A stretch of 64,000 bases of DNA. Origin: an uncultured Bryobacteraceae bacterium. GTDB lineage: Bacteria; Acidobacteriota; Terriglobia; Bryobacterales; Bryobacteraceae. The DNA lies in assembly GCA_937920635.1 (NCBI GenBank), contig CAKZUE010000006.1, forward strand, positions 62,001-126,000. The letters are read 5' to 3'. Under the pieces are notes generated by a model. The model searched no databases, was not told where the DNA came from, and saw only the letters and a program-made list of their open reading frames with translations. A program made the position numbers and the translations under genes. Positions 21,384 to 50,547 of this stretch are shown here, piece after piece (the stretch's first letter is position 1; the number at the start of each line of letters is the position of its first letter).

Positions 21384-21464
21384 TCAGACCGCCGTGTCGG
21401 AAATTCCGTCACGCCGCGGCGCTGCTCGAAGACGTAAGCCTTGTGAATGCAACACGCGGCGATT

Positions 21465-21480
21465 TGGCCCGCAAACTGCT
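21465..21480 (+). promoter_or_regulatory. Candidate sigma-54 promoter of the Qrc-like operon
   Basis: TGGCCCGCAAACTGCT fits the -24/-12 consensus TGGCACG-N4-TTGCW with two mismatches. The invariant GG (21466-21467) and GC (21478-21479) have exactly ten bases between them. Transcription would start near 21491, giving a 30-nt leader with the AGGAGG site of the first operon gene. A sigma-54 activator gene lies at the far end of the operon, which supports the assignment. No rpoN is in the window. Confidence 0.5.
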
Positions 21481-21520: not shown

Positions 21521-21799
21521 ATGTTCGGAGTCGATTGGAACGACCCGCAAACGCTCTGGCTCAACCTGACCAACCTCGGGCTGGGCATCATCACGTTGAT
21601 CTGCGTCGGAGTCGCCGCGTATGCCGGCCTGGCCGAGGTGGCTGCGCGCTGGCGGAAGGCGGCGGAGGCTGAAGCCGACGCGACGATGGCGACGCACGGC
21701 TTCCACACGCCGGAGCTCGGCTTCACCATGGCTGACGGCGGCGAGCCGGAACAGCCCGTAGAAGAGAAGAAGAAGCGCCGCCGGACCCGGAAGTCCTGA
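21521..21799 (+). CDS. Small membrane protein, first gene of the Qrc-like operon
   Basis: 92 residues; AGGAGG lies seven bases upstream of the ATG. One membrane segment (LGLGIITLICVGVAAYAGLAE, about 18-38) is followed by a hydrophilic tail ending in a strongly basic stretch (EEKKKRRRTRKS). I do not recognise a family. Its position immediately downstream of the candidate sigma-54 promoter and 28 bp before the first GcvH-like gene suggests an accessory or small membrane subunit of the complex. Confidence 0.8.
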   Translation: MFGVDWNDPQTLWLNLTNLGLGIITLICVGVAAYAGLAEVAARWRKAAEAEADATMATHGFHTPELGFTMADGGEPEQPVEEKKKRRRTRKS

Positions 21800-21827
21800 G
21801 TGCGCGGGCCCAAGGGAGGGCGAGTCC

Positions 21828-22718
21828 ATGCAGTGCCCATTCCTGAAAGAGGCGCGTGTGCGCTGGTGCCGGGCGGCGGGCATCCGCAAACCGATCGCTG
21901 AATCGCAGAGCGACGATGCGGCCTGCCGCTGCCTGGACGAGCGCTTCCGCGACTGCCGCTGGGTCTCGCCGGAGTTCCACGAGGCTCCGCCGCCCTGCCC
22001 GCACCTGGAGCATGCCCTGGTACAGTACTGCGAAGCCGCGCCGCTGACGCGGTTTGTGCCGTTCAGCGAGCCGCTGCTGACGCGCTGCGGCACCGACGCG
22101 CACAAGTATTGCGACTTCTATCTGGACCTGCTGCGGGCGGCGCGGCCGCCGCTCAAGGACCAGGAGTTCTCGGCGCCGGAGGATCTGTTCTACACGCGCA
22201 ACCACTGGTGGATCGACCTTCAGGAGCAGGGGCTGTGCCATCTGGGCGCCGATGCGTTCCTGGCCCGGCTGTTGGGAGGCGTGGAACGCGCGGGCATCCT
22301 GACGCCGCGGGGCACGGCGTTTCCGGCGGTGGTGTTTACCTGCGGCGGAACGGACTTCACGGTTACATTTCCAGCGCAGATCCGGATTGAAGCTGCGAAC
22401 CCGCATCTGCGGATCGAGCCGCGCCGGATGCTGCGCGAACCGTACTCGGCGGGCTGGCTGTTCCGCGGCATCATTGGCGAGGGCCAGATGCGGGAGCTGA
22501 AGGAATCCCTGATCACCGCCTCCGAGGCGAGGCGCCTGATGGAGGAAGACGCGCGGCGCGTCAACGAAATGCTGCAATCCCTGCGCCCGGCGGGCGCCGT
22601 GCCGGCCATGGCCGACGGAGGGCTGTTTGAGGAAGGGCTCCTCGGCCTGCTCGAGCCGCACGAAGCGCTCCGCCTGTTTCATGAAACCGGCTCGCCTGCG
22701 GCGGGCCAGCGGAGATAG
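21828..22718 (+). CDS. Cys-rich protein with degenerate GcvH-like domain (N-terminal partner of the Qrc-like operon)
   Basis: 296 residues. The first 95 hold nine cysteines (3, 14, 33, 35, 43, 57, 68, 87, 95), enough to bind an iron-sulfur cluster or zinc; which is not known. Residues 122-215 fit the glycine-cleavage H-protein (lipoyl-like) fold: YTRNHWWIDL matches the HEWV entry strand and REPYSAGWLF matches the DPYGEGWL exit. The region that should carry the lipoyl lysine (FTCGGTDFTVTF) has none, so lipoylation is not expected. A helical C-terminus follows (EARRLMEEDARRVNEML). It ends six bases before the pentaheme cytochrome gene, and a second such protein closes the operon. A role in assembly or as a structural subunit is an inference. 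Confidence 0.75.
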   Translation: MQCPFLKEARVRWCRAAGIRKPIAESQSDDAACRCLDERFRDCRWVSPEFHEAPPPCPHLEHALVQYCEAAPLTRFVPFSEPLLTRCGTDAHKYCDFYLDLLRAARPPLKDQEFSAPEDLFYTRNHWWIDLQEQGLCHLGADAFLARLLGGVERAGILTPRGTAFPAVVFTCGGTDFTVTFPAQIRIEAANPHLRIEPRRMLREPYSAGWLFRGIIGEGQMRELKESLITASEARRLMEEDARRVNEMLQSLRPAGAVPAMADGGLFEEGLLGLLEPHEALRLFHETGSPAAGQRR

Positions 22719-22724
22719 GAGAAC

Positions 22725-23309
22725 ATGATTCGGACAGGCATTCTGTTCCTGGCTGGTTTCAGCGTGGCCCTGAGCGCGGGCTGGTGGAGCGTTCCGCGCC
22801 TTCTGTACCGAACAGAGCCGCAGCCGGCGCAGTTCAGCCACATCGCCCACACGGGCGAGAAGGGCGGCATGAGCTGCGAGGACTGCCACTCGTTCCGCGC
22901 CGACGGCACCTTCGCCGGCATTCCGAAGCTCGAGACGTGCGCCGCCTGCCACAGCGCGCCGATGGGCGAGACGCAGGCGGAGAAGGACTTCATCGCGCGC
23001 TTTGTCGAGCCCGGCGTCGAGCCGGAATGGAAGGTGTACTCGCGCCAGCCGGACAATGCCTGGTTCCCGCACTCGGCCCATGTGCTGCGGGGCAAGGTGG
23101 CCTGTGAGAAGTGCCACGGCGAGATCGGGAAGTCGGACAGGCTGCCTGTCTACCGGGTGCACCGCTTCACCGGCTATCCGGAGGACGTGATGGGGAAGCG
23201 CGCCGGGCCGCTCGGCCTGAAGCGCGCGGGCGGCATGCGCATGGACGACTGCGTGGCCTGCCACCGGCAGAACCGGATCGAGCATAGCTGCCTCGATTGC
23301 CACAAGTGA
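22725..23309 (+). CDS. Pentaheme cytochrome c, QrcA-like
   Basis: 194 residues with an uncleaved-looking N-terminal membrane anchor (ILFLAGFSVALSAGWW). Five CXXCH heme c sites are present: CEDCH 51-55, CAACH 72-76, CEKCH 127-131, CVACH 176-180 and CLDCH 189-193. Extra histidines (H39, H42, H116, H119, H146) could be distal ligands. It is of the cytochrome c7/c3 type and matches the position and size of QrcA/ActA, the periplasmic multiheme subunit of CISM (iron-sulfur/molybdoprotein-type) complexes. Electrons would pass between a periplasmic cytochrome and the iron-sulfur subunits encoded next. AGGAG precedes the start. Confidence 0.88.
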   Translation: MIRTGILFLAGFSVALSAGWWSVPRLLYRTEPQPAQFSHIAHTGEKGGMSCEDCHSFRADGTFAGIPKLETCAACHSAPMGETQAEKDFIARFVEPGVEPEWKVYSRQPDNAWFPHSAHVLRGKVACEKCHGEIGKSDRLPVYRVHRFTGYPEDVMGKRAGPLGLKRAGGMRMDDCVACHRQNRIEHSCLDCHK

Positions 23310-23328
23310 AGGCGGGAGGGCAAGACTC

Positions 23329-25224
23329 ATGAAGATCGACCGTAGAGATGTCCTGTCCCTGGCCGGCGGCGCGGCAGCCGGGCTGGCGGTGTCTCCGCTG
23401 CCGTGGCGGCTGCTGGGCGACACGGCCATCTGGAGCCAGAACTGGCACTGGATGCCTCGCGTGCCGCGCGGCGCCATCGAAGAGCGCGAGGCGCGCTGCA
23501 CGCTGTGCCCGTCGGCCTGTCCCGTGAAGCTGCGGATGACCAACGGCATCGTGCATGGCGTTGCGCCCAACGGCGGCGCCCTGTGTCCCGCCGGTTTCGC
23601 CGCGCATCATCTGGCGTGGCATCCGCTGCGGCTGCGCGAGTGCCGGCGGAAAGACCAGGCGGTTCCACTCGAAGAGGCGCTCTCCTCGCTGCGCGCGGCG
23701 GTGGCGCAGCGCCGCGGCGCCGTGGCGGTGCTCGACCTGGCCCCGGGGCGCGCCTCCTCGCTGCTGCACCGCCGCCACATGGCTGCGCTCGGCGGCGCGT
23801 ATCTGATGCCGCCCCGGATTGAAGGCGGCACGGCGCACGCGGTGGAAGCTCTGCTCGAAAAACGCCGCGCACTGGCTGCCGATCTCGCTAGCGTCAAGGC
23901 CGTGCTCTCGGTGAGCACCCCATTGCTCGACGGCTGGGCCGCTCCCTCTTCGGCCGTCGAACGCGGCTTCCGCCTGATTCAGGCGGAGCCGCACCGCTCG
24001 CGCACCGCCGGGCTGGCCGACGAGTGGCTCCCCGTGAAGCCGGGCTCGGAAACCGCCCTGCTGCTGGCTGTCGGGCATTGCTGGCTCAAGCGGCCTGAGA
24101 TGGCGCAACAACTCGAGCGGCTGAAGGGCGCGGAGGCGTGGCGCCAGGCGGCGGAAGCCATGCCGCCGCAGCGCGCGGCGGAGCTGGCGGGCATCGAAGC
24201 GGCGCGCATCGAAGCCGCTGCCGCCGATCTGCTCGGCCACCGCCCGTCGCTCGTTCTGGCCGACGGAGATCCGGTGGGCGGCCCCCTGAGCCGCGAGGCG
24301 CGCGCCGCCGCGGCGGCGCTGAATATTCTGCTCGGCGCGGAAGGCTTCCGCCCGGTGCCGCCGCTGCCCCTGCCGAAAGACTGGACGCTGGCCGAGGCGC
24401 AGAGCCTCGAAGAGGCGGGCGACGGCTCGATCGGTGTGCTCATCATCGACGAGCCCTGGCCGGGAGTTTCCGTGCCGTGGCAGCTCGTCGAGAAGAAGCT
24501 CGCGCGCGGCGCCGTGGTGGCGGCCGTCACCTGGAACCGCGCCCAGTTTGCTCGCCATGCCGAATGGCTGATTCCCGCGCCGGTGTGGCTGGAGGCGCCG
24601 CTGGACGCCGCGCAGCCGCACGATGCGCCGCGCGCGCAGATCGCGGTGGCCCCGGCGGTGATGGCAAGGCCGAAAGACACGATCTCCGCCGCGGAGGCGA
24701 CGGCGCGGCTGGCGGGCGTCGAGATGACGGCCGCGGATGAGTTTGCCGCGCTGGCGCAGGCGGCCGGCAGTGAAGCGGCGCAGATCGGCGACAACGGCTT
24801 CTACTGGAGCAGCGAGGCGAAAGGCGCCGCACCCGCCGCGGCGCGCATCGCGCCGGAGCAGTGGACAGCGGAGACGTGGCTGCGCGCGGCCGCGCCCAGC
24901 GCGGCATCGCCTGCGGTGGTCGCCTTCGGGTGGCGGCAGGCGGCCGTGTCGCCGATGCTCGGCAAGCTGTGGCAGGAGTCGGAACTCCGCGAAGGGCCGC
25001 AGCAGGCCGTGCTGCACCCGGATCTGCTGCGCCGCCAAGGCATGGAGGAAGGCGTGCTGGCGCGGCTCATGTCTCCGCGCGGAGCCTGGCCCGTGCGGGT
25101 GCGGGCGGCCGAGACCCGGCCGGATGTGATTGCCGTCTGCGGCGGGCCGTCGCTCGCGCTGGCCTGCGAAGTCCGGCCCGACGGCGCCTGGACGCTGGGT
25201 GAAGCCAAGGTGGTGAAGTCATGA
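23329..25224 (+). CDS. Molybdopterin-oxidoreductase-like subunit, QrcB-like
   Basis: 631 residues. A Tat signal (RRDVLSLAGGAAAG) indicates folding in the cytoplasm and export. An N-terminal [4Fe-4S] motif, C57, C60, C64 and C86 (CTLCPSAC ... ALCP), is typical of the Moco/bisPGD oxidoreductase family. The sequence just before it (IWSQNWHWMPRVPRG) resembles QrcB, which in Desulfovibrio lacks a pterin cofactor. The protein is short for the family (700-1000 residues is common), and no clear cofactor-ligating Cys/SeCys or Ser is obvious; loss of the cofactor is an inference. Its stop overlaps the ATG of the ferredoxin subunit by four bases. Confidence 0.85.
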   Translation: MKIDRRDVLSLAGGAAAGLAVSPLPWRLLGDTAIWSQNWHWMPRVPRGAIEEREARCTLCPSACPVKLRMTNGIVHGVAPNGGALCPAGFAAHHLAWHPLRLRECRRKDQAVPLEEALSSLRAAVAQRRGAVAVLDLAPGRASSLLHRRHMAALGGAYLMPPRIEGGTAHAVEALLEKRRALAADLASVKAVLSVSTPLLDGWAAPSSAVERGFRLIQAEPHRSRTAGLADEWLPVKPGSETALLLAVGHCWLKRPEMAQQLERLKGAEAWRQAAEAMPPQRAAELAGIEAARIEAAAADLLGHRPSLVLADGDPVGGPLSREARAAAAALNILLGAEGFRPVPPLPLPKDWTLAEAQSLEEAGDGSIGVLIIDEPWPGVSVPWQLVEKKLARGAVVAAVTWNRAQFARHAEWLIPAPVWLEAPLDAAQPHDAPRAQIAVAPAVMARPKDTISAAEATARLAGVEMTAADEFAALAQAAGSEAAQIGDNGFYWSSEAKGAAPAAARIAPEQWTAETWLRAAAPSAASPAVVAFGWRQAAVSPMLGKLWQESELREGPQQAVLHPDLLRRQGMEEGVLARLMSPRGAWPVRVRAAETRPDVIAVCGGPSLALACEVRPDGAWTLGEAKVVKS

Positions 25225-25958
25225 GGAAGCTCGGCGCAGAGAACAAAACGGCGCGTTACGCGATGCTGATCGATCTGGACCGCTGCAACGGCTGCGGCGC
25301 TTGCATGGTGGCCTGCGCGGTGGAGAACAACGTGCCGCCGCCGCAGCCATCGGCCACGCCGCGCACCGGGTTGAACTGGCTGCGTGTGTTCCGCCTCAAT
25401 ACGGGCGGGCGCGACGCCTTCATCCCGGTGATGTGCATGCAATGCGGTGATGAAACCCCCTGCCAGAGCGTCTGCCCGCAGAAGGCGGTGGAGTTCGACC
25501 CGGCGACGGGCATCGTGGGACAGATCCCCGAGCGCTGCCTGGGCTGCCGCTACTGCATGGCCGCCTGCCCCTATCAGGCGCGCGTCTTCAACTGGTGGGA
25601 TCCGCAGTGGCCCGCGGGCATGGAGCAGGCGCTCAACCCGCGGGTGAGCGCGCGGCAGCGCGGCACGGTGGAGAAGTGCAACTTCTGCCACGGGCGCTGG
25701 CAGGCGGCGCTCGAGAAAGCCGCGCAGGACGGCGAGTCCGGACCGGTGCGCTACACGCCCGCCTGTGCGGAAGCCTGCCCGGCGCAGGCCATCCGGTTCG
25801 GCGATCTGAACGACGAAGAGTTCGCGGCCGAGTGCCGGGACAGCGGCGCCTTCCGCCTGCTGGAATCTCTCGGCACCGGGCCAAAGGTGTTCTACAGAAC
25901 CTCGCGCGCCGAGGTGCGGGAAGCGACGCGGGGGTTCGGGGAGGTGAAGCGTGGTTGA
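25221..25958 (+). CDS. Four-cluster ferredoxin subunit, QrcC-like
   Basis: 245 residues without a signal peptide, as expected for a subunit exported with its Tat partner. Four cysteine motifs should hold four [4Fe-4S] clusters: CNGCGACMVAC, CMQCGDETPCQSVCP, CLGCRYCMAACP, and CNFC with the later ACAEACP. This is the PsrB/NrfC/QrcC electron-wire arrangement. It would carry electrons between the QrcB-like subunit and the NrfD-type membrane subunit. Unlike the related region of ActB in this window, its third motif keeps all four cysteines. It overlaps both neighbours (four bases with 23329-25224, eight with the next), which shows tight coupling. Confidence 0.93.
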   Translation: MRKLGAENKTARYAMLIDLDRCNGCGACMVACAVENNVPPPQPSATPRTGLNWLRVFRLNTGGRDAFIPVMCMQCGDETPCQSVCPQKAVEFDPATGIVGQIPERCLGCRYCMAACPYQARVFNWWDPQWPAGMEQALNPRVSARQRGTVEKCNFCHGRWQAALEKAAQDGESGPVRYTPACAEACPAQAIRFGDLNDEEFAAECRDSGAFRLLESLGTGPKVFYRTSRAEVREATRGFGEVKRG

Positions 25959-27210
25959 CCGGATCGACGAAGCCTGGATCGCGCGGGGCGTGCGGCGCGC
26001 GCCGTTCAGCCGGTTCCTGCTGTGGGCGGCGCCGTGGGCGGCATTGCTGCTGCTGGGCGCCTACGCGATTTTCCTCTGCCTGCGCGACGGCCTGTTCCAT
26101 ACCAACATGGACAACCGCTACGTGTTCGGGCTGTGGATCTTTCTCGATCTGACGGTGATCGCGCTGGGCGCGGGCGCGTTCTTCACGGGCTTCCTGCTGT
26201 ACGTGCTGCGGAAGACGGAACTGAAGGCGGTGATCAACAGCGCCGTCGTGATCGGGCTGGTCTGTTACAGCGGCGCGGTGCTGATTCTGGCCGTCGACGT
26301 GGGCCAGCCGCTGCGCGCGTGGTTCACCTTCTACCACCCGAACGTGCACTCGATGCTCACCGAGGTGACTTTCTGCATCACCTGCTACCTGACGGTGCTG
26401 CTGATCGAGTACGTGCCGGTTTTCCTGAAGAACCGCCGGCTGAAGTGGAAGCCGTCGATGCTGGTGTTCGAGTACCACCTGCACAAGGTGATGGTGGTGT
26501 TCGCGCTGATCGGGACGCTGCTGTCGTTCTTCCATCAGGGCTCGCTCGGCGGGCTGTTCGGCGTGCTGCGCGGGCGGCCGTTCGCCTTCCGCGAGGGGCT
26601 GCTGATCTGGCCGAGCACGTTCTTCCTGTTCGTGCTGTCGGCGATGGCGGTGGGGCCGTCGTTCGTGGCGCTGACAACGGGGCTTGCCGAAAAGATCACC
26701 GGGCGGCGGCTGGTGAAAAACGAGGTCTACCAGACGCTGGGGCGGATCTCGGGCAAGCTGCTGCTGGCCTATGTGTTCTTCAAGTGCCTGGACACGCTGC
26801 TGTGGATCAACCAGACGGCGCCGGAGCGCGGCTTTCCCGCGCACCGGTTCTACGAGTACGGCGGCGCGTTCGGCACGTGGATCCTGTTTGCGGAGATCGC
26901 GCTGCTGGGCCTGGTGCCGGCGCTCATTCTGCTGAAGCCGGAGTGGCGCGCGCGGCGCGGGCTGCTGCTGGGCGCGGCGGCGATGGCCTGCCTGGGCGTG
27001 ACGCTGAACCGCTTCGTGTTCACCATCCAGACGCTGGCGCTGCCGACGATGCCGTTCGACCGGCTGCTGCTGTACTGGCCGTCGTGGCAGGAGTTCGCGG
27101 CGTTCGGATTCGTGGTGGCCTACGGCATGCTGGTGTACTCGTTCTCCTACCGGTATCTGACGCTGTTTCCGCAGGAGCGGGAGCTGGCGATGACGGAGGC
27201 GCGGAGGTAA
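25951..27210 (+). CDS. NrfD/PsrC-family quinone-binding membrane subunit, QrcD-like
   Basis: 419 residues from a GTG with GGAGG upstream. About ten hydrophobic helices are visible, for instance FLLWAAPWAALLLLGAYAIF near 18, LWIFLDLTVIALGAGAFFTG near 62, and FGFVVAYGMLVYSFSY near the end. This is the ten-helix NrfD fold that binds menaquinone near the periplasmic face. Conserved-looking polar residues inside helices (F-H-Q-G-S-L-G-G near 195-202, W-x-E/Q near the C-terminus) are typical of the family. It should couple quinone redox chemistry to the exported iron-sulfur subunits. Confidence 0.92.
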   Translation: MVDRIDEAWIARGVRRAPFSRFLLWAAPWAALLLLGAYAIFLCLRDGLFHTNMDNRYVFGLWIFLDLTVIALGAGAFFTGFLLYVLRKTELKAVINSAVVIGLVCYSGAVLILAVDVGQPLRAWFTFYHPNVHSMLTEVTFCITCYLTVLLIEYVPVFLKNRRLKWKPSMLVFEYHLHKVMVVFALIGTLLSFFHQGSLGGLFGVLRGRPFAFREGLLIWPSTFFLFVLSAMAVGPSFVALTTGLAEKITGRRLVKNEVYQTLGRISGKLLLAYVFFKCLDTLLWINQTAPERGFPAHRFYEYGGAFGTWILFAEIALLGLVPALILLKPEWRARRGLLLGAAAMACLGVTLNRFVFTIQTLALPTMPFDRLLLYWPSWQEFAAFGFVVAYGMLVYSFSYRYLTLFPQERELAMTEARR

Positions 27211-27213
27211 GCC

Positions 27214-28044
27214 ATGTTTCCCTGGGTGTACGGCTTTGAATGGAACGCCGGATATCTGATCTTCCTGGGCGTGTTCTTCACGGTGGCCCTGGTGGTGGCG
27301 GGCACGGTGTTGGCCGCGCTGTGGCGGAGCTTCCGCACGGTTCGGAAGAAACAGGAAGGGCGCGTGTACTGGCACACTGCCTTTGAAGAGCTCACGCCCG
27401 AGGAGCGCCGCTGCCGGCACGCGATCACGGGCGAGTTGCCGGAGCGGTGCTGCGACCGCGAATTCGACTGCCGCGGCTGCCGCATCCACGCGCGGCTGCT
27501 GTATTCGGACGAAGCCGCGGCCCATGCCGCCGGATCCGGACAGGCTGAGGCGTGCGGTGTGGCCGTGCCGCTGGACCGCTACTACCACCGCGGCCACACC
27601 TGGGTCCGCGAAGCCGAAGACGGCACGCTGCTGGTAGGGCTGGACGATCTCGGCCGCCGCCTGCTGGGCGCGGACGGCACGGTCGAGACGCCGCCGGCGG
27701 GCGCGGAGCTGCGCGTGAACGAGCCCGCCTTCGTGGCGCGGCGCAATGGCGTCGAGGCGCGGATCCTGTCGCCGGTGGACGGGACCGTGCTCGGCCCGGC
27801 TTCAGACGGAGAGGCGCTGGTGCGCGTGCGCCCCGCGGAGGATTTCCGCACCACGCATCTGCTGCGGGGAGGCGAAGCCGTGGCCTGGATGCGTCACGAG
27901 CTGGACCGGTTGCAGGTGGCGCTGGCGGCTTCCTGCGGCGCGGCGTCGCTGGCCGATGGCGGCGCAGTGGCAGAGGATCTGGGCCGGCGGCTGACGGCGC
28001 GGGAGTTCGACACCGCCTGCGGACTGGCGTTCCTGGACGTGTGA
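27214..28044 (+). CDS. Membrane-anchored GcvH-like protein with Cys motif, last gene of the Qrc-like operon
   Basis: 276 residues. A membrane segment (about 12-36) is followed by a Cys motif: C67, C79-C80, C86 and C89 in RCRHAITGELPERCCDREFD then CRGC. The pattern CxxxFDCxxC recalls Cys motifs I associate with GcvH-like proteins of anaerobic Deltaproteobacteria (from memory, not checked). Residues 120-205 are GcvH-like (YYHRGHTWVREAEDGTLLVG; SPVDGTVLG is the lipoyl-hairpin region), but the lipoyl lysine position is glycine (RNGVEAR). It starts three bases after the NrfD stop and ends three bases before the convergent sigma-54 activator gene. It probably belongs to the complex or its assembly; no catalytic role is claimed. 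Confidence 0.78.
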   Translation: MFPWVYGFEWNAGYLIFLGVFFTVALVVAGTVLAALWRSFRTVRKKQEGRVYWHTAFEELTPEERRCRHAITGELPERCCDREFDCRGCRIHARLLYSDEAAAHAAGSGQAEACGVAVPLDRYYHRGHTWVREAEDGTLLVGLDDLGRRLLGADGTVETPPAGAELRVNEPAFVARRNGVEARILSPVDGTVLGPASDGEALVRVRPAEDFRTTHLLRGGEAVAWMRHELDRLQVALAASCGAASLADGGAVAEDLGRRLTAREFDTACGLAFLDV

Positions 28045-28047
28045 GGG

Positions 28048-29400
28048 TCAGCGCTCGATGCCGTAGCGCTTGAGCTTTTCGTAGAGCGTCGAGCGGTCGA
28101 TGCCAAGTGATGCGGCGGCCTCTTTGACGTTGCCGCCGGTGCGGCGCAGCGCCGCCTCGATCATGAGTTTCTCCATGTCGGCCAGTGTCAGGTTGTCGGG
28201 CATCTGGATTTTGGCCGCGCCATTGTTTCGCAGGAAGGAGAAGTCCTCTGCCGTGAGCGTCCTGCCACGGCAGCTCACAATGGCGCGCTCGACGGCGTTC
28301 TCCAGTTCGCGCACGTTGCCCGGCCAGGAGTGGTCCATCAGCAGGCGCATGGCATCCTGCGCAATCTCCTCCACGGGTTTGCCGAGCTCGTGCGAAATGC
28401 GCTCGACGAAGTGCCCGGCCAGCAGTGGAATGTCCTCGCGGCGCTCCCGCAGCGGCGGGATCTGGATCTCGATCACGTTGAGGCGGTAGAAGAGGTCTTC
28501 ACGGAACTTGCCTTCTTCCACGAGCGCGCGGAGGTCCTTGTGCGTGGCGGCGATCACACGCGCATCCACATGGACCTCCTCCGACCCGCCGACGCGGTAG
28601 AACGAGCGTTCCTGCAACACGCGCAGCAGGTCCGCCTGGAGCTTGGGGCCGATGTCGCCGATTTCGTCCAGGAAGATGGTGCCGCCGTCGGCGAGTTCGA
28701 ACTTGCCCTTCTTGCGCTCCGCCGCGCCGGTGAAGGCGCCCTTCTCGTAACCGAACAGCTCGCTTTCGAGCAGGGTTTCCGCCAGCGCGGCGCAACTGAC
28801 GGCGATGAAGGGTTTCTGGGCGCGGTTGCCGGAGAAATGGATGGCGCGGGCCACCAGTTCCTTGCCCGTTCCGCTCTCGCCGCGGATGAGCACGGTGCTG
28901 CGCAGGCTGGAGACTTCGCGCGCCAGCTCCAGCACCTCGAGCATCCGCGGGCTCTTGCAGATGATGTCGTGGAACTGGTAGCGGCGCTGGAGCTTCTTGC
29001 GGAGGATGAGGTTCTCGCGCTGGAGGCGTTTCACCTTGATGATGCGGCCGACCAGCAGCGAGATCTCCTCGGGGTTGCAGGGCTTGACGATGTACTCCTG
29101 GGCGCCTTCCTTGATGGCGGTGATGGCGGTGTCGACGGTGGCGTAGGCGGTGATGATGATGATGGAGGCGTCGGGATGGAGGCGGCGGATCTCCATCAGC
29201 GTGTCGATGCCGTCCATGCCGCCGGGCATTTTCAGGTCGATGAAGTAGATGGCGTAGTCGGTTTTCTTCGCCAGCTCCACCGCCTCGCGCCCGCTGGACG
29301 CGGTGTCGACGAGGTAACCGTCCTCGCGCAGCCACGCGGCCAGCGACTCGCACATGATCTCTTCATCGTCGACGACCAGGATCTGCCATTGCGGCTTCAT
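28048..29400 (-). CDS. NtrC-family sigma-54-dependent response regulator
   Basis: 450 residues from the ATG at 29400, which overlaps the archaemetzincin stop (ATGA). The receiver domain is 5-120 with D55 ([10 protein letters not shown]) and K106. The AAA+ sigma-54 interaction domain has Walker A GESGTGKE at 174-181, the sigma-54-contacting GAFTGA at 221-226 and Walker [12 protein letters not shown]. The C-terminal Fis-type HTH ends with [20 protein letters not shown]. It activates sigma-54 promoters when phosphorylated by the heme-motif kinase upstream. The candidate promoter at 21465 makes the convergent Qrc-like operon its likely target. Confidence 0.95.
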
Positions 29401-29942
29401 GCGGACACCTCCCGGAGGCGCGCCGCGCAGGACGGGCACGGCGCCTCCCCTTTCAGATCGATCTGTCCCACCTGCACCGACAGCCGCATGACGCAGCCCG
29501 GCGAGGAGCAGTGCACCAGCCCGAGCAGATGCCCCGCCTCATGCACCGCCTCCTTGCGCGCGCGCTCCAGCAGCAGCGCTTCGTTGCCTGGCAGGCCGTA
29601 GAATTCCTGCCGCAGCCGCGCCACCGACACCACGCCCGCGCGTCCCTTCAACTGCGCCTGCCCGTAAACGAAGCTGAGCATGGGGATGAACAGATCCACG
29701 CCCGTCACCGCCAGCGCTTTCGGGATGCCCTCCGGCAGCGAGGCAAGGACGCTTTCGAGCACCGCCGGCGCGCTCCATTGCGCGCGGCGGGCGTCGTAGG
29801 CGCCCTGCGGGATCTCCAGGGGCTTGAGCCCCGCCACGCGGACGGGCAGGCATTGCTCAAGAGCCGCGGCCATCGCCGGGATCACGCCTTGCGGCACGGC
29901 GCGGTCTTCGGGCGTTCTCAATTCGAAGACGCCCACGACCAT
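29397..29942 (-). CDS. amzA: Archaemetzincin-type zinc metalloprotease (peptidase M54)
   Basis: 181 residues from the ATG at 29942 (a GTG one codon earlier is possible). It holds the full archaemetzincin signature: HEAGHLLGLVHC with H134, E135, H138 and H144, then C145, C150, M152, and a CPSC at 169-172. The histidines bind catalytic zinc and the four cysteines a structural zinc in the family. There is no signal peptide, so it should be cytoplasmic. Substrates of bacterial archaemetzincins are not established. Its ATG overlaps the kinase stop (TGATG) and its stop overlaps the regulator start (ATGA). A protease locked between a kinase and its regulator is unusual and suggests a role in the signalling circuit. 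Confidence 0.9.
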   Translation of the reverse strand: MVVGVFELRTPEDRAVPQGVIPAMAAALEQCLPVRVAGLKPLEIPQGAYDARRAQWSAPAVLESVLASLPEGIPKALAVTGVDLFIPMLSFVYGQAQLKGRAGVVSVARLRQEFYGLPGNEALLLERARKEAVHEAGHLLGLVHCSSPGCVMRLSVQVGQIDLKGEAPCPSCAARLREVSA

Positions 29943-31555
29943 CACCCCCGCACCGCCCCGGACGCCTCGGTCACGGGCGTCTTCTGCAAAGGCAGGCTGA
30001 CCGTGAAGGTGGTTCCCTGGCCGGGGCGGCTCTGCACTTCGATCTCGCCCAGATGCGCCTGGACGATGCCGTAGGTCACCGCCAGCCCCAACCCCACGCC
30101 CTTGCCTTCGGGTTTGGTGGTGAAGAAGGGATCAAAGATCTTCGGCAGCACCTCCGGCGGAATCCCCTCGCCGTCGTCGGTGACGCGGATGAAGACCTCG
30201 CTGTCGCGGCGTCCGGTTTCGACCCGGAGAGTGCCCCTGCCGTGCGGCTGCATCGCCTCGGCGGCGTTCAGGGCGAGATTCAGGATCACCTGCTGCATCT
30301 GCGAGCGGTCGCACAGCACCGGCGGCAGGGCCGGATCCAGTTGCAGTTGCACCTCTACGTTGGCGAGCTTGAACTTGTGCGACACCAGCGAAAGGGTGGA
30401 TTCAATCACCTGGTTGAGGTTGGTTTCTATGTGATGCGGGGCTGAGCGGCGGGAGAAAGCCAGCAGGTCGCCGACGATGCGCCCCACGCGCGTGGTCTCC
30501 GAAGCGATCTGCCCCAGGTAGCGGCGGAAGTCCGCCAGCCGCTCCGGCGGCACGCCGTCTTCGCGCAGCAGGCGCTCCATCAGTTTGGCCAGGTTCAGCA
30601 CGCCGGCCACGGGGTTGTTGATCTCATGGGCGACGCTGGCGGCAAGCTGGCCGAGCGAGGCCAGCCGGTCGCTTTGCATGAGCTTCTGGTGGGCGCTTTT
30701 CAGTTCCCGCGTCCGCTGCTCGACCTTTTCCTCCAGCTCCTGGGTGAAGCTGTTGATGCGGTCCATGGCGTCCTTGAGCCGCACCCGCATGACTTCGAAG
30801 GCGCGCGCCAGGTCGGTGATCTCGCCGGCATGATCCGGGATTTCGACGGGGTGGTCCAGCTCCATGCGGCTGATCGACTCCGTGCTGGCGATCAGCCGCT
30901 GGATCGGCTGGCTGAAAAACCGGCGGGCGAAGAAATAAATCAGCGGGCAGATCAGCAGGATCTCGCCAATGGCGCGCACGGCGATGCGCGTCTGCATGTT
31001 GGCCAGTTCCTCGTCCACGGTATCGAGCTTCAGGCTCACTTCCAGCACCCCGAGCACCCGCACCTGCGGCGGATGGGCGTGGCAGTCGGCGTTGCTGCAC
31101 TGCCGTTCGTTCGGGATGGGCGTGATCACCGACAGCCGCCGCGGACCTTCCGTGCGTTCGTGGATCTCCACCCGCTCGCGCAGCGACAGCGCAGGAAGCT
31201 GCAGCCCTTGCCGGTGGCACCGCGAACATTGCGGATCCTCGAGGGCAAACCGCTGTCCTACGTCCTCCTGATTCGTAGAGAACGTCACCTCACCCTGCCC
31301 GTTGAACAGCCGCAGCCGGTCGATGCCCTGCTTCTCGGCGATGGTCCGCATTGTCTGGTAGACGTCGTCGCGGCGGTCGGCGAGCATGGCATGCCAGGTG
31401 GCCGAGGTGATGCTGCCGGATAGCTGATCGGCGCCCGCGATCACCACGTCCAGCATGTGGCGCTCCTCGGCGCGGTAGATCGTGTAGCCGGAGATCACGG
31501 CGATGACGCCCACCACCGCGGCCACCGCCAGCATGAGTTTGGTGACCAGGCGCAT
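29942..31555 (-). CDS. Sensor histidine kinase with periplasmic heme c-like motifs
   Basis: 537 residues from the ATG at 31555 (AGGAG upstream); the longer open frame upstream lacks similarity. Membrane helix 5-25; periplasmic sensor about 30-190 containing CSRCH (110-114) and a CX4CH motif, CSNADCH (153-159); helix 196-212; HAMP to about 265; coiled coil 268-295; HisKA with H310 (ASVAHEINNPVAG); and a full HATPase (NLALNAAEAMQP, VTDDGEGIPPE, GKGVGLGLAV). Periplasmic CXXCH sites in a kinase suggest covalent heme sensing redox state, oxygen, NO or periplasmic cytochromes. It heads the kinase-protease-activator unit that faces the Qrc-like operon. Confidence 0.93.
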   Translation of the reverse strand: MRLVTKLMLAVAAVVGVIAVISGYTIYRAEERHMLDVVIAGADQLSGSITSATWHAMLADRRDDVYQTMRTIAEKQGIDRLRLFNGQGEVTFSTNQEDVGQRFALEDPQCSRCHRQGLQLPALSLRERVEIHERTEGPRRLSVITPIPNERQCSNADCHAHPPQVRVLGVLEVSLKLDTVDEELANMQTRIAVRAIGEILLICPLIYFFARRFFSQPIQRLIASTESISRMELDHPVEIPDHAGEITDLARAFEVMRVRLKDAMDRINSFTQELEEKVEQRTRELKSAHQKLMQSDRLASLGQLAASVAHEINNPVAGVLNLAKLMERLLREDGVPPERLADFRRYLGQIASETTRVGRIVGDLLAFSRRSAPHHIETNLNQVIESTLSLVSHKFKLANVEVQLQLDPALPPVLCDRSQMQQVILNLALNAAEAMQPHGRGTLRVETGRRDSEVFIRVTDDGEGIPPEVLPKIFDPFFTTKPEGKGVGLGLAVTYGIVQAHLGEIEVQSRPGQGTTFTVSLPLQKTPVTEASGAVRG

Positions 31556-44296: not shown

Positions 44297-44941
44297 ATGA
44301 CTGTCTTCTCGAAGCAGTTCGACACGAAGCTGCGCCTTGCCGCCGGTGCAGTTGTGGTCCTTCTCGGCGCAGGCGGCGCCGTCGCGGCGTACCTCCTCCA
44401 CCCCCGGCAGCTCGACACCGGCTACATGCCCGCGCAGCCCGTGCCTTACAGCCACAAGCTGCACGCGGGCAATCTCGGCATGGACTGCCTCTATTGCCAC
44501 ACGACCGTGGCGCAGTCCAACTACGCCGCCGTGCCGATGACGGAAGTCTGCATGAACTGCCATGTGCGGGTGAAGGAAAAAAGCCCCAAGTTGCAGCCCG
44601 TGCGCGACAGCTACGCGAGCGGCAAGCCCATCCCGTGGGTCAAGGTTCACCGCCTGCCGGACTACGTTTATTTTAACCACCGGGCTCACGTGACCGCGGG
44701 CGTGAGCTGCGTCAGTTGCCACGGGCGCGTGGATCAGATGACGGAAGTGCGGCAGGTGCAGCCGCTGTCGATGGCATGGTGCCTCGAGTGCCACCGCAAC
44801 CCCGCGCCGCATGTCCGTCCGCCCGAGCTGGTTACCAAACTCGACTGGCAGCCCGAGGGCGATCCGGCAGTGCTCGGCGCGAAGCTGATCCGCGAAAAGG
44901 GCATCCACCCGCCCGACAACTGCTCCGCCTGTCACAGATAA
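44297..44941 (+). CDS. actA: Alternative complex III pentaheme cytochrome c subunit ActA
   Basis: 214 residues with an N-terminal membrane anchor (AAGAVVVLLGAGGAVAAYLL). Five CXXCH sites: CLYCH 64-68, CMNCH 85-89, CVSCH 138-142, CLECH 162-166 and CSACH 209-213. This is the periplasmic electron-exit subunit of the quinol-oxidising complex, which hands electrons on to the oxidase. First gene of the act-cox operon; 17 bp separate it from actB. It resembles the QrcA-like protein at 22725 in heme number and anchor, which fits common descent of the two complexes. Confidence 0.95.
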   Translation: MTVFSKQFDTKLRLAAGAVVVLLGAGGAVAAYLLHPRQLDTGYMPAQPVPYSHKLHAGNLGMDCLYCHTTVAQSNYAAVPMTEVCMNCHVRVKEKSPKLQPVRDSYASGKPIPWVKVHRLPDYVYFNHRAHVTAGVSCVSCHGRVDQMTEVRQVQPLSMAWCLECHRNPAPHVRPPELVTKLDWQPEGDPAVLGAKLIREKGIHPPDNCSACHR

Positions 44942-44958
44942 CCCCAAGGCCTGCGACC

Positions 44959-47919
44959 ATGAACGAACTCATCCAGCTCAACCTCTCCAGCCTCACCGGC
45001 AGGAAATACTGGCGCAGCCTGAACCAGCTCGCCGATACGCCGGAGTTCCGCCAGTGGGTGGAACGCGAGTTTCCCGAAGGCGCCTCGGAGATGCTCGACA
45101 GCGGCTCGCGCCGGACGCTGCTGAAGCTGATGGCCGCGGGGTTCGGCCTCGCCGGCCTCACCGCCTGCCGCCGCCCCGCCGAAAAGATTCTTCCTCTCTC
45201 GAAAGGCGTTGAAGGCTACGTGCATGGCCGTCCGCTGCACTACGCCACCGCCGTCGAGACCTGCGGCATCGCTTCCGGGCTCGTCATCGAGTGCAACGAC
45301 GGCCGGCCCACGAAGGTGGAGGGCAATCCGCGCCATCCTTTCTCGCTCGGCGCCACCAACGCCTTCCAGCAGGCGATGATCCTGGATCTGTACGACCCGG
45401 ACCGCGCCCGCCAGGTGCAGAAGCAGGGCGTGAAGTCTTCGTGGGCCGAGTTCGAATCGTGGTGGATGGAACAGAGCGCGAAGCTCGGCGATGGCGCGGG
45501 GCTGCGCATTCTTTCCTCGCGCTCCACGTCGCCGTCTCTCGAAGCGCTGAAGGCGGAGATCGCGAAGAAGTTCCCGCAGTCGGCCTGGATCGAATACGAA
45601 CCGGTCAGCTTCGACCGAGCGCTGGAGGGAGCGCGCCTCGCTTTCGGCAGGCCGCTTGTGCCGCACTACCGGCTCGAACAGGCCGATGTGATCGTCTCGC
45701 TCGACTGCGACTTCCTTGGGCTCGACACGCTCTCCGCGCAGCCAGTCAAGCAGTTCGCCGCGCGCCGCAAGCCCGAGGACGGCAAAGAGCTGAACCGGCT
45801 CTACGCGATCGAAGCGAATTTCACGATCACCGGCGCGATGGCCGACCACCGCCTGCGCGCCCGCTCCTCCGATGCCGGGGCCATCGCGCTGGCTCTGGCG
45901 CGCGAGCTCAACGTGAGCGGCGCGGAGCTGAAGGTGTTGAGCCAGGGCGGCGACAGGCAGCAGAAATTTGTGGCCGTGGCAGCCAAAGACCTGATGGCGC
46001 ACCGCGGCCGTTCGCTGGTCGTGGCCGGCCCGCGGCAGCCCGCCGAGGTGCACGCGCTGGTGGCGCTGATCAACCAGGCGCTCGGAAACACGGGCCAGAC
46101 GGTGGTCTATACGCGGCCGGCGTTCGCCGCCGCCGACACGCTCGGGGCGGTGCAGAAACTGGCCGAGGATCTCGCCGCGGGGCGCGTGAATACGCTGTTC
46201 GTGCTCGGCGGCAATCCGCTGTTCACGCTGCCTGCCGGCCCCGATTGGGCCGCGCTGTTCCGGAAAGCCACGGTGGCGGCGCTCACGTTCGACGAAAACG
46301 AAACGTGGAAAGCGGCGGCGTGGCAACTGCCGGAAGCGCACCCGTTCGAAGCGTGGGGAGATGTCCGCGCGCTCGACGGCACGGCCAGCATCCAGCAGCC
46401 GCAGATCCAGCCGCTCCACGGCGGACGCACCGCGCTGGAGATCGCCGCGCTGATCGCCGGGCGCGCCGAGCGCCGCGGCCACGGCATTGTCCGCTCGTAC
46501 TGGGCCGCGCAGTGGGGCGCGCAGGCGGAACAGAAGTGGAAGCAGGCGCTCTACGAAGGCGTCATTGCGGGCACGCAGTTTCCGCTGGAGGAAGCGAAGG
46601 CCGATGCGGCGCGCGTGCTGGCCGCCGCGCAGAGCGCGTTGAAGCCCGCGCCGGCGGGCATCGAAACGGTCTTTTATCCCTCCTGGCACACGCTGGACGG
46701 CCGCTTCGCCAACAATGCGTGGCTGCATGAGACGCCCGATCCGATGACGAAGCTCGTCTGGGACAACGCCGCGCTGCTCAGCCCCGCCACGGCGAAGCGG
46801 CTCGGCGTAAAAGACGGCGACGTGCTGGAAATCTCTTCCGGAGGCCGCCAGATCCGCTGTCCCGCACTGGTGCTGCCGGGCCACGCCGACGATTCGATTT
46901 CGCTTCAGCTCGGCTTTGGACGCTCCGCCTGCGGCCGGGTGGGCCGCGGCGTCGGCCACCGCGTGGAAGGGCTCCGCGCTGCGGCCAACTTCTGGTTCGG
47001 CCCGGCGGAGGCGCGCAAGACCGGCGCCACGTACAAGCTGGTCACCACGCAGGAGCACCACACGCTGATCGAGCCGATCACCGGACTCAAGCGCCACAAC
47101 ATCGTGGAAGAGTTCAGCGTGGAGCAATACCGCCATCGCGCCGAACACGGCAGGCACGAACCGCACCCGGCAACAGACCTTTTCCCCGAGTTTGATTACT
47201 CGAAGGGCTACCAGTGGGGCATGGCCATCGACCTGAGCGCCTGCATCGGCTGCAACGCCTGCATGGTGGCCTGCAACGCCGAAAACAACATCCCCGTGGT
47301 CGGCAAGGAGCAGGTCTCCAAGGGCCGCGAGATGCACTGGATCCGCCTGGACCGCTACTTCAGCGGCGAGGAGGAAGACCCGCAGGCGGTGGTGCAGCCC
47401 ATGGCCTGCGTGCAGTGCGAGAAGGCGCCGTGCGAAAGCGTCTGCCCCGTGGCCGCCACGGTGCACAGCCCGGAAGGCATCAACGAGATGGCTTACAACC
47501 GCTGCGTGGGCACGCGCTACTGCCTCAACAACTGCCCCTACAAGGTGCGGCGGTTCAACTTCCTGAACTGGAACAAGGACATTCCGGAGATCCGGAAGAT
47601 GGTCTTCAACCCCGACGTGACGGTGCGCATGCGCGGCGTCATGGAGAAGTGCAACTACTGCGTGCAGCGCATCGAGGAGAAGCGCTCGCAGGCCAAGGCC
47701 GAAGGCCGCCGCCCCATCCGCGACGGCGAAATCGTCACCGCCTGCCAGCAGGCGTGCCCGGCCGACGCCATCGTCTTCGGCAACATCAACGATCCGGAAA
47801 GCCGCGTGGCGAAGCTGAAGCAGCAGGCGCGCGATTATTCCGTGCTCGAAGAGCTCAACACGAAGCCGCGCACGACGTACCTGGCGCGCGTCCGCAATCC
47901 CAATCCGGAGCTTGTCTGA
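44959..47919 (+). CDS. actB: Alternative complex III fused molybdoprotein-like/iron-sulfur subunit ActB
   Basis: 986 residues. A Tat motif (SRRTLLKLMAAG, R51-R52) and a lipobox (LTAC, C70) predict an exported lipoprotein. Residues about 75-740 are Moco-oxidoreductase-like (ActB1), and about 750-970 form the ferredoxin part (ActB2), with CIGCNACMVAC, CVQCEKAPCESVCP, CVGTRYCLNNCP and CNYC plus ACQQACP. The third motif has T in place of the second cysteine, which predicts one [3Fe-4S] and three [4Fe-4S] clusters, as reported for this complex. The pterin domain carries no cofactor in characterised ACIII. It relays electrons from the quinol site in ActC to ActA. Confidence 0.95.
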   Translation: MNELIQLNLSSLTGRKYWRSLNQLADTPEFRQWVEREFPEGASEMLDSGSRRTLLKLMAAGFGLAGLTACRRPAEKILPLSKGVEGYVHGRPLHYATAVETCGIASGLVIECNDGRPTKVEGNPRHPFSLGATNAFQQAMILDLYDPDRARQVQKQGVKSSWAEFESWWMEQSAKLGDGAGLRILSSRSTSPSLEALKAEIAKKFPQSAWIEYEPVSFDRALEGARLAFGRPLVPHYRLEQADVIVSLDCDFLGLDTLSAQPVKQFAARRKPEDGKELNRLYAIEANFTITGAMADHRLRARSSDAGAIALALARELNVSGAELKVLSQGGDRQQKFVAVAAKDLMAHRGRSLVVAGPRQPAEVHALVALINQALGNTGQTVVYTRPAFAAADTLGAVQKLAEDLAAGRVNTLFVLGGNPLFTLPAGPDWAALFRKATVAALTFDENETWKAAAWQLPEAHPFEAWGDVRALDGTASIQQPQIQPLHGGRTALEIAALIAGRAERRGHGIVRSYWAAQWGAQAEQKWKQALYEGVIAGTQFPLEEAKADAARVLAAAQSALKPAPAGIETVFYPSWHTLDGRFANNAWLHETPDPMTKLVWDNAALLSPATAKRLGVKDGDVLEISSGGRQIRCPALVLPGHADDSISLQLGFGRSACGRVGRGVGHRVEGLRAAANFWFGPAEARKTGATYKLVTTQEHHTLIEPITGLKRHNIVEEFSVEQYRHRAEHGRHEPHPATDLFPEFDYSKGYQWGMAIDLSACIGCNACMVACNAENNIPVVGKEQVSKGREMHWIRLDRYFSGEEEDPQAVVQPMACVQCEKAPCESVCPVAATVHSPEGINEMAYNRCVGTRYCLNNCPYKVRRFNFLNWNKDIPEIRKMVFNPDVTVRMRGVMEKCNYCVQRIEEKRSQAKAEGRRPIRDGEIVTACQQACPADAIVFGNINDPESRVAKLKQQARDYSVLEELNTKPRTTYLARVRNPNPELV

Positions 47920-47922
47920 CCC

Positions 47923-49329
47923 ATGGCCGATCTCGCAATCGATCCGCGAATGGAACTGAACCCGCCCCTGGTGCAGGGCGGCATGACCTACTCCGACGTC
48001 ACCGACAAGATCAGCTCGATCGTCGAGGGCAAGGCGCCGAAGCAGTGGTGGATCGCCATGGCCGTCGCCGTGCCGCTGGCCCTGCTGCTGTTCGCCTGCC
48101 TCGGCTATCTGGTGACGACGGGCATCGGCGTCTGGGGCAACAACTCGCCGGTGGGCTGGGGCTGGGACATCACGAACTTCGTCTGGTGGATCGGCATCGG
48201 CCACGCCGGCACGCTGATCTCGGCCATCCTGTTCCTGTTCCGCCAGAAGTGGCGCACGTCGATCAACCGCGCGGCGGAGGCGATGACGCTGTTCGCCGTG
48301 GCGTGCGCCGCCATCTATCCGCTGTTCCATACGGGCCGGCCGTGGCGCGCCGCCTACTGGCTGTTCCCGCTGCCCAACGAGCTGCTGCACATGTGGCAGA
48401 ACTTCCGCAGCCCGCTGATGTGGGACGTCTTCGCCGTCTCCACTTACGGAACCGTCTCCGCGCTGTTCTGGTATGTGGGGCTGATCCCCGACCTGGCCAC
48501 GCTGCGCGACCGCTCCACCACGCCCATCCGCAAGACCATTTACGGATTGCTGAGCCTCGGCTGGCGCGGCTCGGCGACGCAATGGCGCCACTACGAACTC
48601 GCCTATCTGCTCCTTGCGGGGTTGTCGACGCCGCTGGTGCTCAGCGTGCACTCGATCGTGTCGTTCGACTTCGCCACCTCGCTGCTGCCGGGCTGGCACA
48701 CGACGATCTTCCCGCCGTACTTCGTCGCCGGCGCCGTGTTCAGCGGCTTCGCCATGGTGGTGACGCTGATGACGCTGGCGCGCTGGATCTACGGGCTGGA
48801 AAACCTGATCACGATGAAGCACCTCGAGAACATGTGCAAGGTGATGCTGGCCACCGGCATGATCGTCGGCTTCGCTTACGGCACAGAGTTCTTCATCGCC
48901 TGGTACAGCGCCAACCAGTATGAGCGGTTCATCTTCCTCAACCGCGCCTTCGGCCCCTACTGGTGGGCCTACTGGTCGATGATCGCCTGCAACGTGATCG
49001 CACCGCAGTTCTTCTGGTTCAAAAAGTTCCGCACGTCAATCCCGGCGATGTTCATTCTCTCGATCTTCATCAACATCGGCATGTGGTTCGAGCGGTTCGT
49101 GATTATCGCCACGTCGCTGCACCGCGATTTTCTGCCCTCAAGCTGGGGCTACTTCTCGCCCACCTGGGTCGACATCGGCACCTACTTGGGCACGTTCGGC
49201 CTGTTCCTGACGCTGTTCCTGCTGTTCCTGCGCTTCCTGCCCGCCATCGCCATCAGCGAGGTGAAGGGCGTGCTGCACCAGCAGGTCAGCGCTCCGCATG
49301 GAGTTCCCGCGCATGGAGGCAGCCACTGA
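47923..49329 (+). CDS. actC: Alternative complex III quinol-binding membrane subunit ActC (NrfD family)
   Basis: 468 residues with about ten membrane helices (for example [22 protein letters not shown] near 43 and [19 protein letters not shown] near 425). It belongs to the NrfD/PsrC family; polar residues inside helices, such as [11 protein letters not shown] near 90 and HSIVSFDFA near 243, are hallmarks of the quinol-oxidising ActC. It starts three bases after actB and its TGA shares a base with the actD ATG. ActF is its paralogue in the same operon. Confidence 0.95.
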
Positions 49330-49916
49330 TGCTGGAAGCGGTTCTTTCCAAACTCGGCCTGCCGGGCTACGAGCCGGAAGCCGCGCGCCAGAAGGTATTC
49401 GGCGTCATCGGCGACTTTGACACGCCGGAGGACCTGCTCCGTGCCATCCGCACGGCGCGCGCCGCCGGCTACACGCGGATGGAAGCGTTCTCGCCGTTCC
49501 CGGTGCACGGGGTGGACGAAGCGCTGGGCGCGCGGCGCAGCCCGCTGGGCCGCATCGTCATCGTGTTCGCCCTGCTCGGACTGGCCGGCGCCGTGCTGCT
49601 GCAATGGTGGACCGGCGCGGTGGATTACAAGCTGATCGTTGCAGGAAAGCCGCTGTTCGCGCTGGAGCCGTCGGTGCCCATCATGTTCGAGCTGGCCGTG
49701 CTGCTGAGCGCCTTCGCCGCCGTGCTCGGCATGTTCCACCTGAACCGGATCCCCACCTACTACCACCCGTTCTTCAACTACTCGCGCCACGCCGGCGCGA
49801 GCAACGACCGCTTCCTGCTCGCCATCGACGCGCAGGATCCGAAATTCCAGGCCGAGGACGCCGTGCGCTTCCTCGACTCCTGCGGAAGCCGCCACACGGA
49901 GGTTGTCGAAGCATGA
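49329..49916 (+). CDS. actD: Alternative complex III subunit ActD (DUF3341)
   Basis: 195 residues from the ATG at 49329. The soluble N-terminal domain (FGVIGDFDTPEDLLRAIRTA, then YTRMEAFSPFPVHGVDEALG) is the DUF3341 signature. Two membrane helices follow (IVIVFALLGLAGAVLLQWW, about 78-96, and MFELAVLLSAFAAVLGMFHL, about 120-139). The NRIPTYYHPFFN motif after the second helix is also typical. It is a non-redox structural subunit of the complex. Start and stop overlap actC (one base) and actE (four bases). Confidence 0.94.
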   Translation: MLEAVLSKLGLPGYEPEAARQKVFGVIGDFDTPEDLLRAIRTARAAGYTRMEAFSPFPVHGVDEALGARRSPLGRIVIVFALLGLAGAVLLQWWTGAVDYKLIVAGKPLFALEPSVPIMFELAVLLSAFAAVLGMFHLNRIPTYYHPFFNYSRHAGASNDRFLLAIDAQDPKFQAEDAVRFLDSCGSRHTEVVEA

Positions 49917-50530: not shown

Positions 50531-50547
50531 GCAGCGAGGGAAACCGA

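Follow-up and report, generated by a model that had tools for sequence, protein, structure and literature searches.

A putative divergent Qrc-type operon with GcvH-fold proteins predicted to lack lipoate, beside archaemetzincin and two-component genes, in an uncultured Bryobacteraceae bacterium

The closest described counterpart of the complex reported here is QrcABCD, the menaquinone reductase of sulfate-reducing Desulfobacterota, which passes electrons from cytochrome c3 to menaquinone and has no Mo/W cofactor in QrcB. In that enzyme QrcC and the quinone site are periplasmic, QrcD is without cofactor and protons come from the cytoplasmic side (PMC6303296). The haem count given for QrcA in a review table is six (PMC8076601). 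The H-protein fold is known from GcvH, from the GcvH-like family TIGR03077 (not_gcvH) and from LbpA of the sHdr systems, a lipoate-binding protein (PMC6067878).

The operon in question lies in contig CAKZUE010000006.1 of an uncultured Bryobacteraceae bacterium, in a stretch of 64 kb (the window), to whose numbering coordinates without a locus name refer. Four qrc genes are accompanied there by genes for two GcvH-like proteins (GcvH1 and GcvH2) and for a small protein with one transmembrane span (TM), and genes for a histidine kinase, a sigma-54-dependent regulator and an archaemetzincin stand beside them (Table 1). Taken singly, Qrc, the H-protein fold and archaemetzincin are familiar, and their combination is without description in the literature searched; that search, in which subscription papers were thinly covered, yielded no paper joining GcvH with qrcABCD or NrfD, and none joining archaemetzincin with two-component operons, and a wider one brought up nothing relevant either. 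It is a realistic possibility that the accessory module represents a system of a new kind.

The Qrc-type operon and its conservation

Gaps between the seven genes are of 28 bases or fewer, and two gene overlaps occur. The sequence-only reading of this DNA had described a Qrc-like complex bracketed by two GcvH-like proteins, and its gene content and coordinates were correct. The pentahaem cytochrome that it named is QrcA, with five CxxCH motifs, as in every complete homologue, and 199.2 bits against the NCBIfam NF041781 cut-off of 180. The molybdopterin-type subunit exported by twin-arginine translocation (Tat) is QrcB, which carries the signal KIDRRDVLSLAGG at its N-terminus and a conserved CxxCxxxC...C motif. 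The four-cluster ferredoxin has its four cysteine sets in QrcC, and the NrfD subunit, QrcD, passed the NF041784 cut-off of 570 with 570.3 bits. Overlooked in that reading were the small TM gene and the flanking kinase, regulator and archaemetzincin genes.

The identification as Qrc itself held in part. The A-B-C-D gene order, the Tat-exported B subunit and the scores of QrcA and QrcD over their equivalog cut-offs agree with QrcABCD, whereas QrcB and QrcC, although best matched by NF041783 and NF041782, failed the cut-offs of these families (169 against 440 bits and 290 against 400 bits). The operon further differs from QrcABCD in being flanked by GcvH1, GcvH2 and the small TM protein. Because two subunits pass and two fall below, and because QrcA has five haems against the six of the review (PMC8076601), the complex is called divergent and Qrc-type, an assignment that on these profile matches is highly probable.

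A profile search found no dsrA in this genome, and among 23 Qrc carriers dsrA exceeded the cut-off in one (G209, the genome of locus L015, with dsrA at L077). This Qrc is thus mostly unlinked to sulfate reduction, a role that was ruled out for most carriers, and it differs from QrcABCD in this respect also.

Table 1. Features of the operon and its surroundings, with two receiver fusions from related loci
Feature	Location	Strand	Remarks
Sigma-54 (-24/-12) promoter-like site	21464..21480	+	TTGGCCCGCAAACTGCT; 57 bp 5' of the first gene
Operon, seven genes	21521-28044	+	small membrane protein, GcvH1, QrcA, QrcB, QrcC, QrcD, GcvH2
Small single-TM protein	21521..21799	+	basic cytoplasmic tail (predicted); motif TMADGGEP, ADGG at 21731-21742
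GcvH1	21828..22718	+	two Cys4 repeats, GcvH-fold domain without lipoyl lysine, MADGG tail motif at 22611-22622
QrcA	22725..23309	+	pentahaem cytochrome c; NF041781 over cut-off
QrcB	23329..25224	+	molybdopterin-oxidoreductase-like, Tat signal; NF041783 E 1.1e-49
QrcC	25221..25958	+	four-cluster ferredoxin subunit; NF041782 E 1.3e-86
QrcD	25951..27210	+	NrfD-type membrane subunit; NF041784
GcvH2	27214..28044	+	TM anchor, Cys4/His motif, GcvH-fold domain without lipoyl lysine, LADGG tail at 27952-27963
Sigma-54-dependent response regulator	28048..29400	-	receiver, AAA+ with GAFTGA, Fis helix-turn-helix (Pfam); start predicted
Archaemetzincin (peptidase M54)	29397..29945	-	full HExxHxxGxxHCx4CxM...CxxC motif
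Sensor histidine kinase	29942..31555	-	periplasmic di-haem c-type sensor; Pfam HisKA/HATPase/HAMP/Mcp40H-20_sensor
TM-receiver-GcvH fusion	L075 9434-10534		no DGG; PF00072 E 3e-29, PF01597 E 2.4e-20
Tandem receiver-GcvH genes	L139 17538-19548		no DGG

GcvH2 was found directly downstream of QrcD at 20 of 20 QrcD loci (Bryobacterales and Ignavibacteriota/Bacteroidota), across which QrcD identity was 66-81%. GcvH1 was present at all of these with enough upstream contig except L021, and the small TM protein was the first operon gene at every locus with sufficient contig. The phylum surveys covered 199 Acidobacteriota genomes, of which 3 had QrcD, and 148 Ignavibacteriota/Bacteroidota genomes, of which 5 had it; the Qrc-type GcvH2 was found in exactly the same eight, with the two genes adjacent in 8/8. 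GcvH1 and GcvH2 formed separate clades in the tree, each spanning both phyla, and no relatives of GcvH2 were found among plasmid records. On the evidence of these loci the module appears, with near certainty, to be conserved, and the association of the GcvH-like proteins with the complex was borne out.

Fold, missing lysine and cysteines of the GcvH-like proteins

Sequence matches of the two proteins to GCV_H were weak (GcvH1, E 0.0011; GcvH2, E 1.1e-6), and against the GcvH equivalog TIGR00527 they scored 27.1 and 29.1 bits and so failed its cut-off of 115.85. AlphaFold2 models were made from window and related-locus sequences and searched using Foldseek/VIA. For GcvH1, whose domain 113-252 was modelled with a predicted local distance difference test (pLDDT) score of about 90, the best structural match was a solved H-protein (Z 15.4, 1.9 Å root-mean-square deviation, 128 residues). 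The best match of GcvH2 (mean pLDDT 78) was likewise a solved H-protein (Z 13.6, 2.1 Å, 117 residues), and among the runners-up for both only other H-proteins came near. The fold that had been proposed from the letters alone was thereby recovered.

Alignment with canonical GcvH also upheld the absence of the lipoyl lysine. The ESVKA hairpin lysine was absent in GcvH1, GcvH2 and all wider-family members aligned, and was kept in the canonical controls, among them the GcvH of this genome (ESVKAVSDIYSP, the alignment reference). Lipoate carriage by the GcvH-like proteins was ruled out on this ground, and on the models GcvH1 and GcvH2 are very probably GcvH folds without lipoate. The H-protein fold would suit lipoate or another swinging-arm cofactor held on a different residue, but the hairpin is replaced by a short, usually glycine-containing turn and no branch of the family has a conserved lysine, so that this alternative is very improbable. 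From GcvH, not_gcvH and LbpA the window proteins differ in the missing lysine, in their Cys-rich and/or TM-anchored N-termini, in an xDG[GA] tail and in their tie to NrfD modules and two-component genes.

The cysteine clusters noted earlier are real, with eight invariant residues in GcvH1 (3, 14, 35, 43, 57, 68, 87 and 95) and C67/C80/C86/C89 in GcvH2. The Cys-rich N-terminus of GcvH1 was modelled with low confidence and matched no Pfam family. Stand-alone small proteins in L065 (7203-7427), L068, L070, L071 and L161 hold one copy (CPYLKEVVMLYC...C...CP) of the Cys4 domain that is present twice in GcvH1, and these too matched no Pfam family. Along with four canonical GcvHs and two Lys-bearing proteins of genome G031, such small Cys4 proteins were excluded before counting despite a GcvH-profile match.

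It had been suggested that these clusters may bind iron-sulfur (FeS) centres or zinc and act in assembly or electron transfer. With FeS centres bound, GcvH1 and GcvH2 might be electron-transfer subunits that give Qrc a cytoplasmic electron exit. The invariant cysteine patterns of both proteins speak for this, as do the stand-alone Cys4 proteins that lie, in other clusters, between the regulator gene and the FeS genes. Cysteines of such spacing could equally hold zinc, however, and the periplasmic position of QrcC and the quinone site, with a cofactor-less QrcD (PMC6303296), leaves no evident wire across the membrane. Moreover, the clusters are missing in most wider-family members, both the TM-GcvH-DGG and the receiver-GcvH forms, and were ruled out as the general function of the family. 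FeS electron transfer is thus possible for the Cys-rich GcvH1 and GcvH2 and excluded as a family-wide role by the Cys-less majority; as an account of these proteins it is quite unlikely. Once the flanking signalling and protease genes are taken into account, regulation or assembly replaces electron transfer as the likeliest role.

The DGG motif, archaemetzincin and two-component genes

The accessory proteins are most probably cytoplasmic in their soluble parts, because of positive-inside charges and the TM-receiver-GcvH order of related fusions. The net charge of the small TM protein is -1.7 before the TM and +1.2 after it. In the fusions the GcvH-fold domain is joined in-frame to a receiver, which would place that domain in the cytoplasm and tie it to a phosphorelay.

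The sequence ADGG is invariant in the small TM protein, GcvH1 and GcvH2. All 98 complete non-receiver GcvH-like proteins read contain DG[GA] within their last 75 residues; it was found in this position in 0 of 31 receiver fusions and in 117 of 1704 unrelated open reading frames (6.9%). In the GcvH2 model the DGG lies in a low-confidence linker preceding the C-terminal helix. The form FAQDGG[EK]P or TMYDGG occurs in small membrane proteins of other clusters that have no domain in common with GcvH. As the motif is invariant yet flexible, and present in unrelated proteins, a common recogniser is suggested.

To our knowledge little has been established about what archaemetzincins do. The window protein has a complete zinc site and Cys4 motif (HEAGHLLGLVHCSSPGCVM...CPSC), matched PF07998 (E 1.2e-19) and reached 147.3 bits against the NF033823 cut-off of 145; no signal peptide was seen in it. 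It resembles the M54 archaemetzincins in these features. It scored below the cut-off of the CarG type, which is proteolytically inactive, and differs from described members in being embedded in a putatively redox-regulated respiratory cluster. Among surveyed genomes with sequences read, which were picked by GcvH match and not by archaemetzincin, the protease was present in 42/42 motif-bearing genomes and in 0/20 with receiver fusions only. The one apparent exception is probably G218, which lies outside the survey and whose contig L024 does carry an archaemetzincin.

Perfect operon linkage by itself would yield such co-occurrence, and the GcvH-like proteins could be pure assembly or scaffold factors, with archaemetzincin and motif co-inherited without a direct link. 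The motif, however, also stands in small membrane proteins without a GcvH domain, of which L060-L062 have two or three in a row; a shared recogniser fits this better, and co-inheritance without a link is rather improbable.

The kinase contains the haem-c motifs CSRCH and CSNADCH, and one CxxCH and one CxxxxCH are kept in nearly all of its homologues. Kinase, regulator and archaemetzincin genes accompany the operon in Acidobacteriota and in Ignavibacteriota/Bacteroidota, sometimes placed upstream. Promoter-like sites were scored with a simple consensus of our own (maximum 27). The site before the operon is one of only three in the window, both strands counted, that score at least 23. Upstream of 35 related operons the best site had a mean score of 22.1, against 19.1 in shuffles, and scores of at least 23 were reached by 49% of the operons and 5% of the shuffles; in most of the 35 the best site lay 31-116 bp from the first gene.

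The reading preferred here is that of a Qrc-type periplasmic cytochrome:quinone oxidoreductase equipped with two GcvH-fold proteins and the small single-span protein, which would sit on the cytoplasmic surface of the NrfD-type subunit or beside it. The GcvH-like proteins would act as adaptor or as regulatory or assembly subunits, not as lipoate carriers. The haem-c kinase and sigma-54 regulator would sense the periplasmic redox state and set expression, to judge by their domain make-up and by the conservation of the -24/-12 site. The cytoplasmic archaemetzincin would recognise, and probably cut, the flexible xDG[GA] linker, and so mature the complex or switch it off. An adaptor or regulatory role is somewhat favoured, action of archaemetzincin at DGG is put forward tentatively, and the whole, a Qrc with a cytoplasmic regulatory accessory set and archaemetzincin at DGG, falls a little short of an even chance. 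A partner on the N-side could plausibly influence Qrc, since its protons are taken from the cytoplasmic side (PMC6303296).

Several points weigh against this reading. Contact with QrcD and proteolysis are both inferred from sequence, and an archaeal archaemetzincin was inactive on every standard substrate tested (PMC3427221). Because the receiver fusions group as one clade (support 94/92), protease and motif may have gone missing together only once, as one correlated loss. At L059, L154 and L155 (three genomes of one family) a GcvH-like protein, archaemetzincin and regulator occur without a nearby NrfD module, so that NrfD binding may not hold in all cases.

Related modules and receiver fusions

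The accessory set was also found beside HmcB/HmcC-like FeS-NrfD modules, in Ignavibacteriota/Bacteroidota as well as across many families of Acidobacteriota. This genome has a second module of its own (L025 1040-7446, contig C53), with GcvH3 bearing a DGG tail, FeS and NrfD subunits, haem-c kinase, sigma-54 regulator and archaemetzincin; its FeS/NrfD pair resembles HmcB/HmcC, and no Tat signal was seen in its FeS protein. Compared with Hmc and HybA/HybB, the FeS-NrfD pairs of these sister modules match HmcB/HmcC best, but the modules have GcvH-like proteins, archaemetzincin, kinase and regulator, and no hydrogenase catalytic subunit was seen in the clusters read. An NrfD subunit with a fused C-terminal trihaem cytochrome c7-like domain (Pfam NrfD + Cytochrome_C7) was observed at L066 9968-11542.

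Receiver-GcvH fusions, often in tandem, were found in Acidobacteriota family f23 and in many Ignavibacteriota/Bacteroidota genomes, and in the larger loci they lie beside kinase, NrfD and FeS genes. In the sister branch without protease and motif a receiver is fused directly to the GcvH-fold domain, which points to this domain as the element under regulation.

The same fusions, often standing in tandem beside a haem-c kinase, would also fit GcvH folds that are signalling parts, reading the state of the membrane complex and reporting it to kinase and regulator, with archaemetzincin as a brake on the signal and the complex as the object reported, not the target. Minimal clusters that consist of a kinase, an archaemetzincin, a regulator and a GcvH-like protein and have no NrfD (L059 and L155, and in part L154), and the FeFe-hydrogenase-like domain on the L059 kinase point the same way. 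The genes of GcvH1 and GcvH2, however, form part of the qrc operon and are inherited together with QrcD specifically, as subunits would be, and a signalling role of this kind is unlikely. At L059 5327-7357 the histidine kinase is fused to ferredoxin and FeFe-hydrogenase-like domains, and adjoins the archaemetzincin, the regulator and a Cys-rich GcvH-like protein.

If the preferred reading is extended to the sister modules, di-haem kinase and sigma-54 regulator would form a widespread, so far undescribed control system that makes NrfD quinone complexes with membrane-tethered, lipoate-less GcvH adaptors, and a dedicated archaemetzincin would cut the conserved DGG hinge of these adaptors. This wider proposal is doubtful; if true, it would provide the archaemetzincin family with a physiological substrate and the H-protein fold with a new use, and in the sister branch fusion of a receiver domain to the adaptor would have taken the place of proteolysis. 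The loci place Qrc outside sulfate reducers, in company with accessory genes that are also met beside other NrfD-type complexes. Recurrence of these genes across phyla suggests that respiratory complexes are regulated or assembled in a way so far undescribed. Without lipoate, the H-protein fold appears to have been put to use in membrane respiration and in two-component signalling, the in-frame receiver fusion being one instance, and the flexible DGG motif shared by co-encoded proteins offers a concrete, testable substrate hypothesis for archaemetzincin.

Elsewhere in the window (44297-51747), Alternative complex III-like genes for a multihaem cytochrome, a molybdenum-cofactor-like/FeS fusion, NrfD subunits and a cytochrome c are followed by an SCO-like gene. 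From its gene content this set is predicted to be an aerobic-type respiratory branch that shares the window with Qrc.

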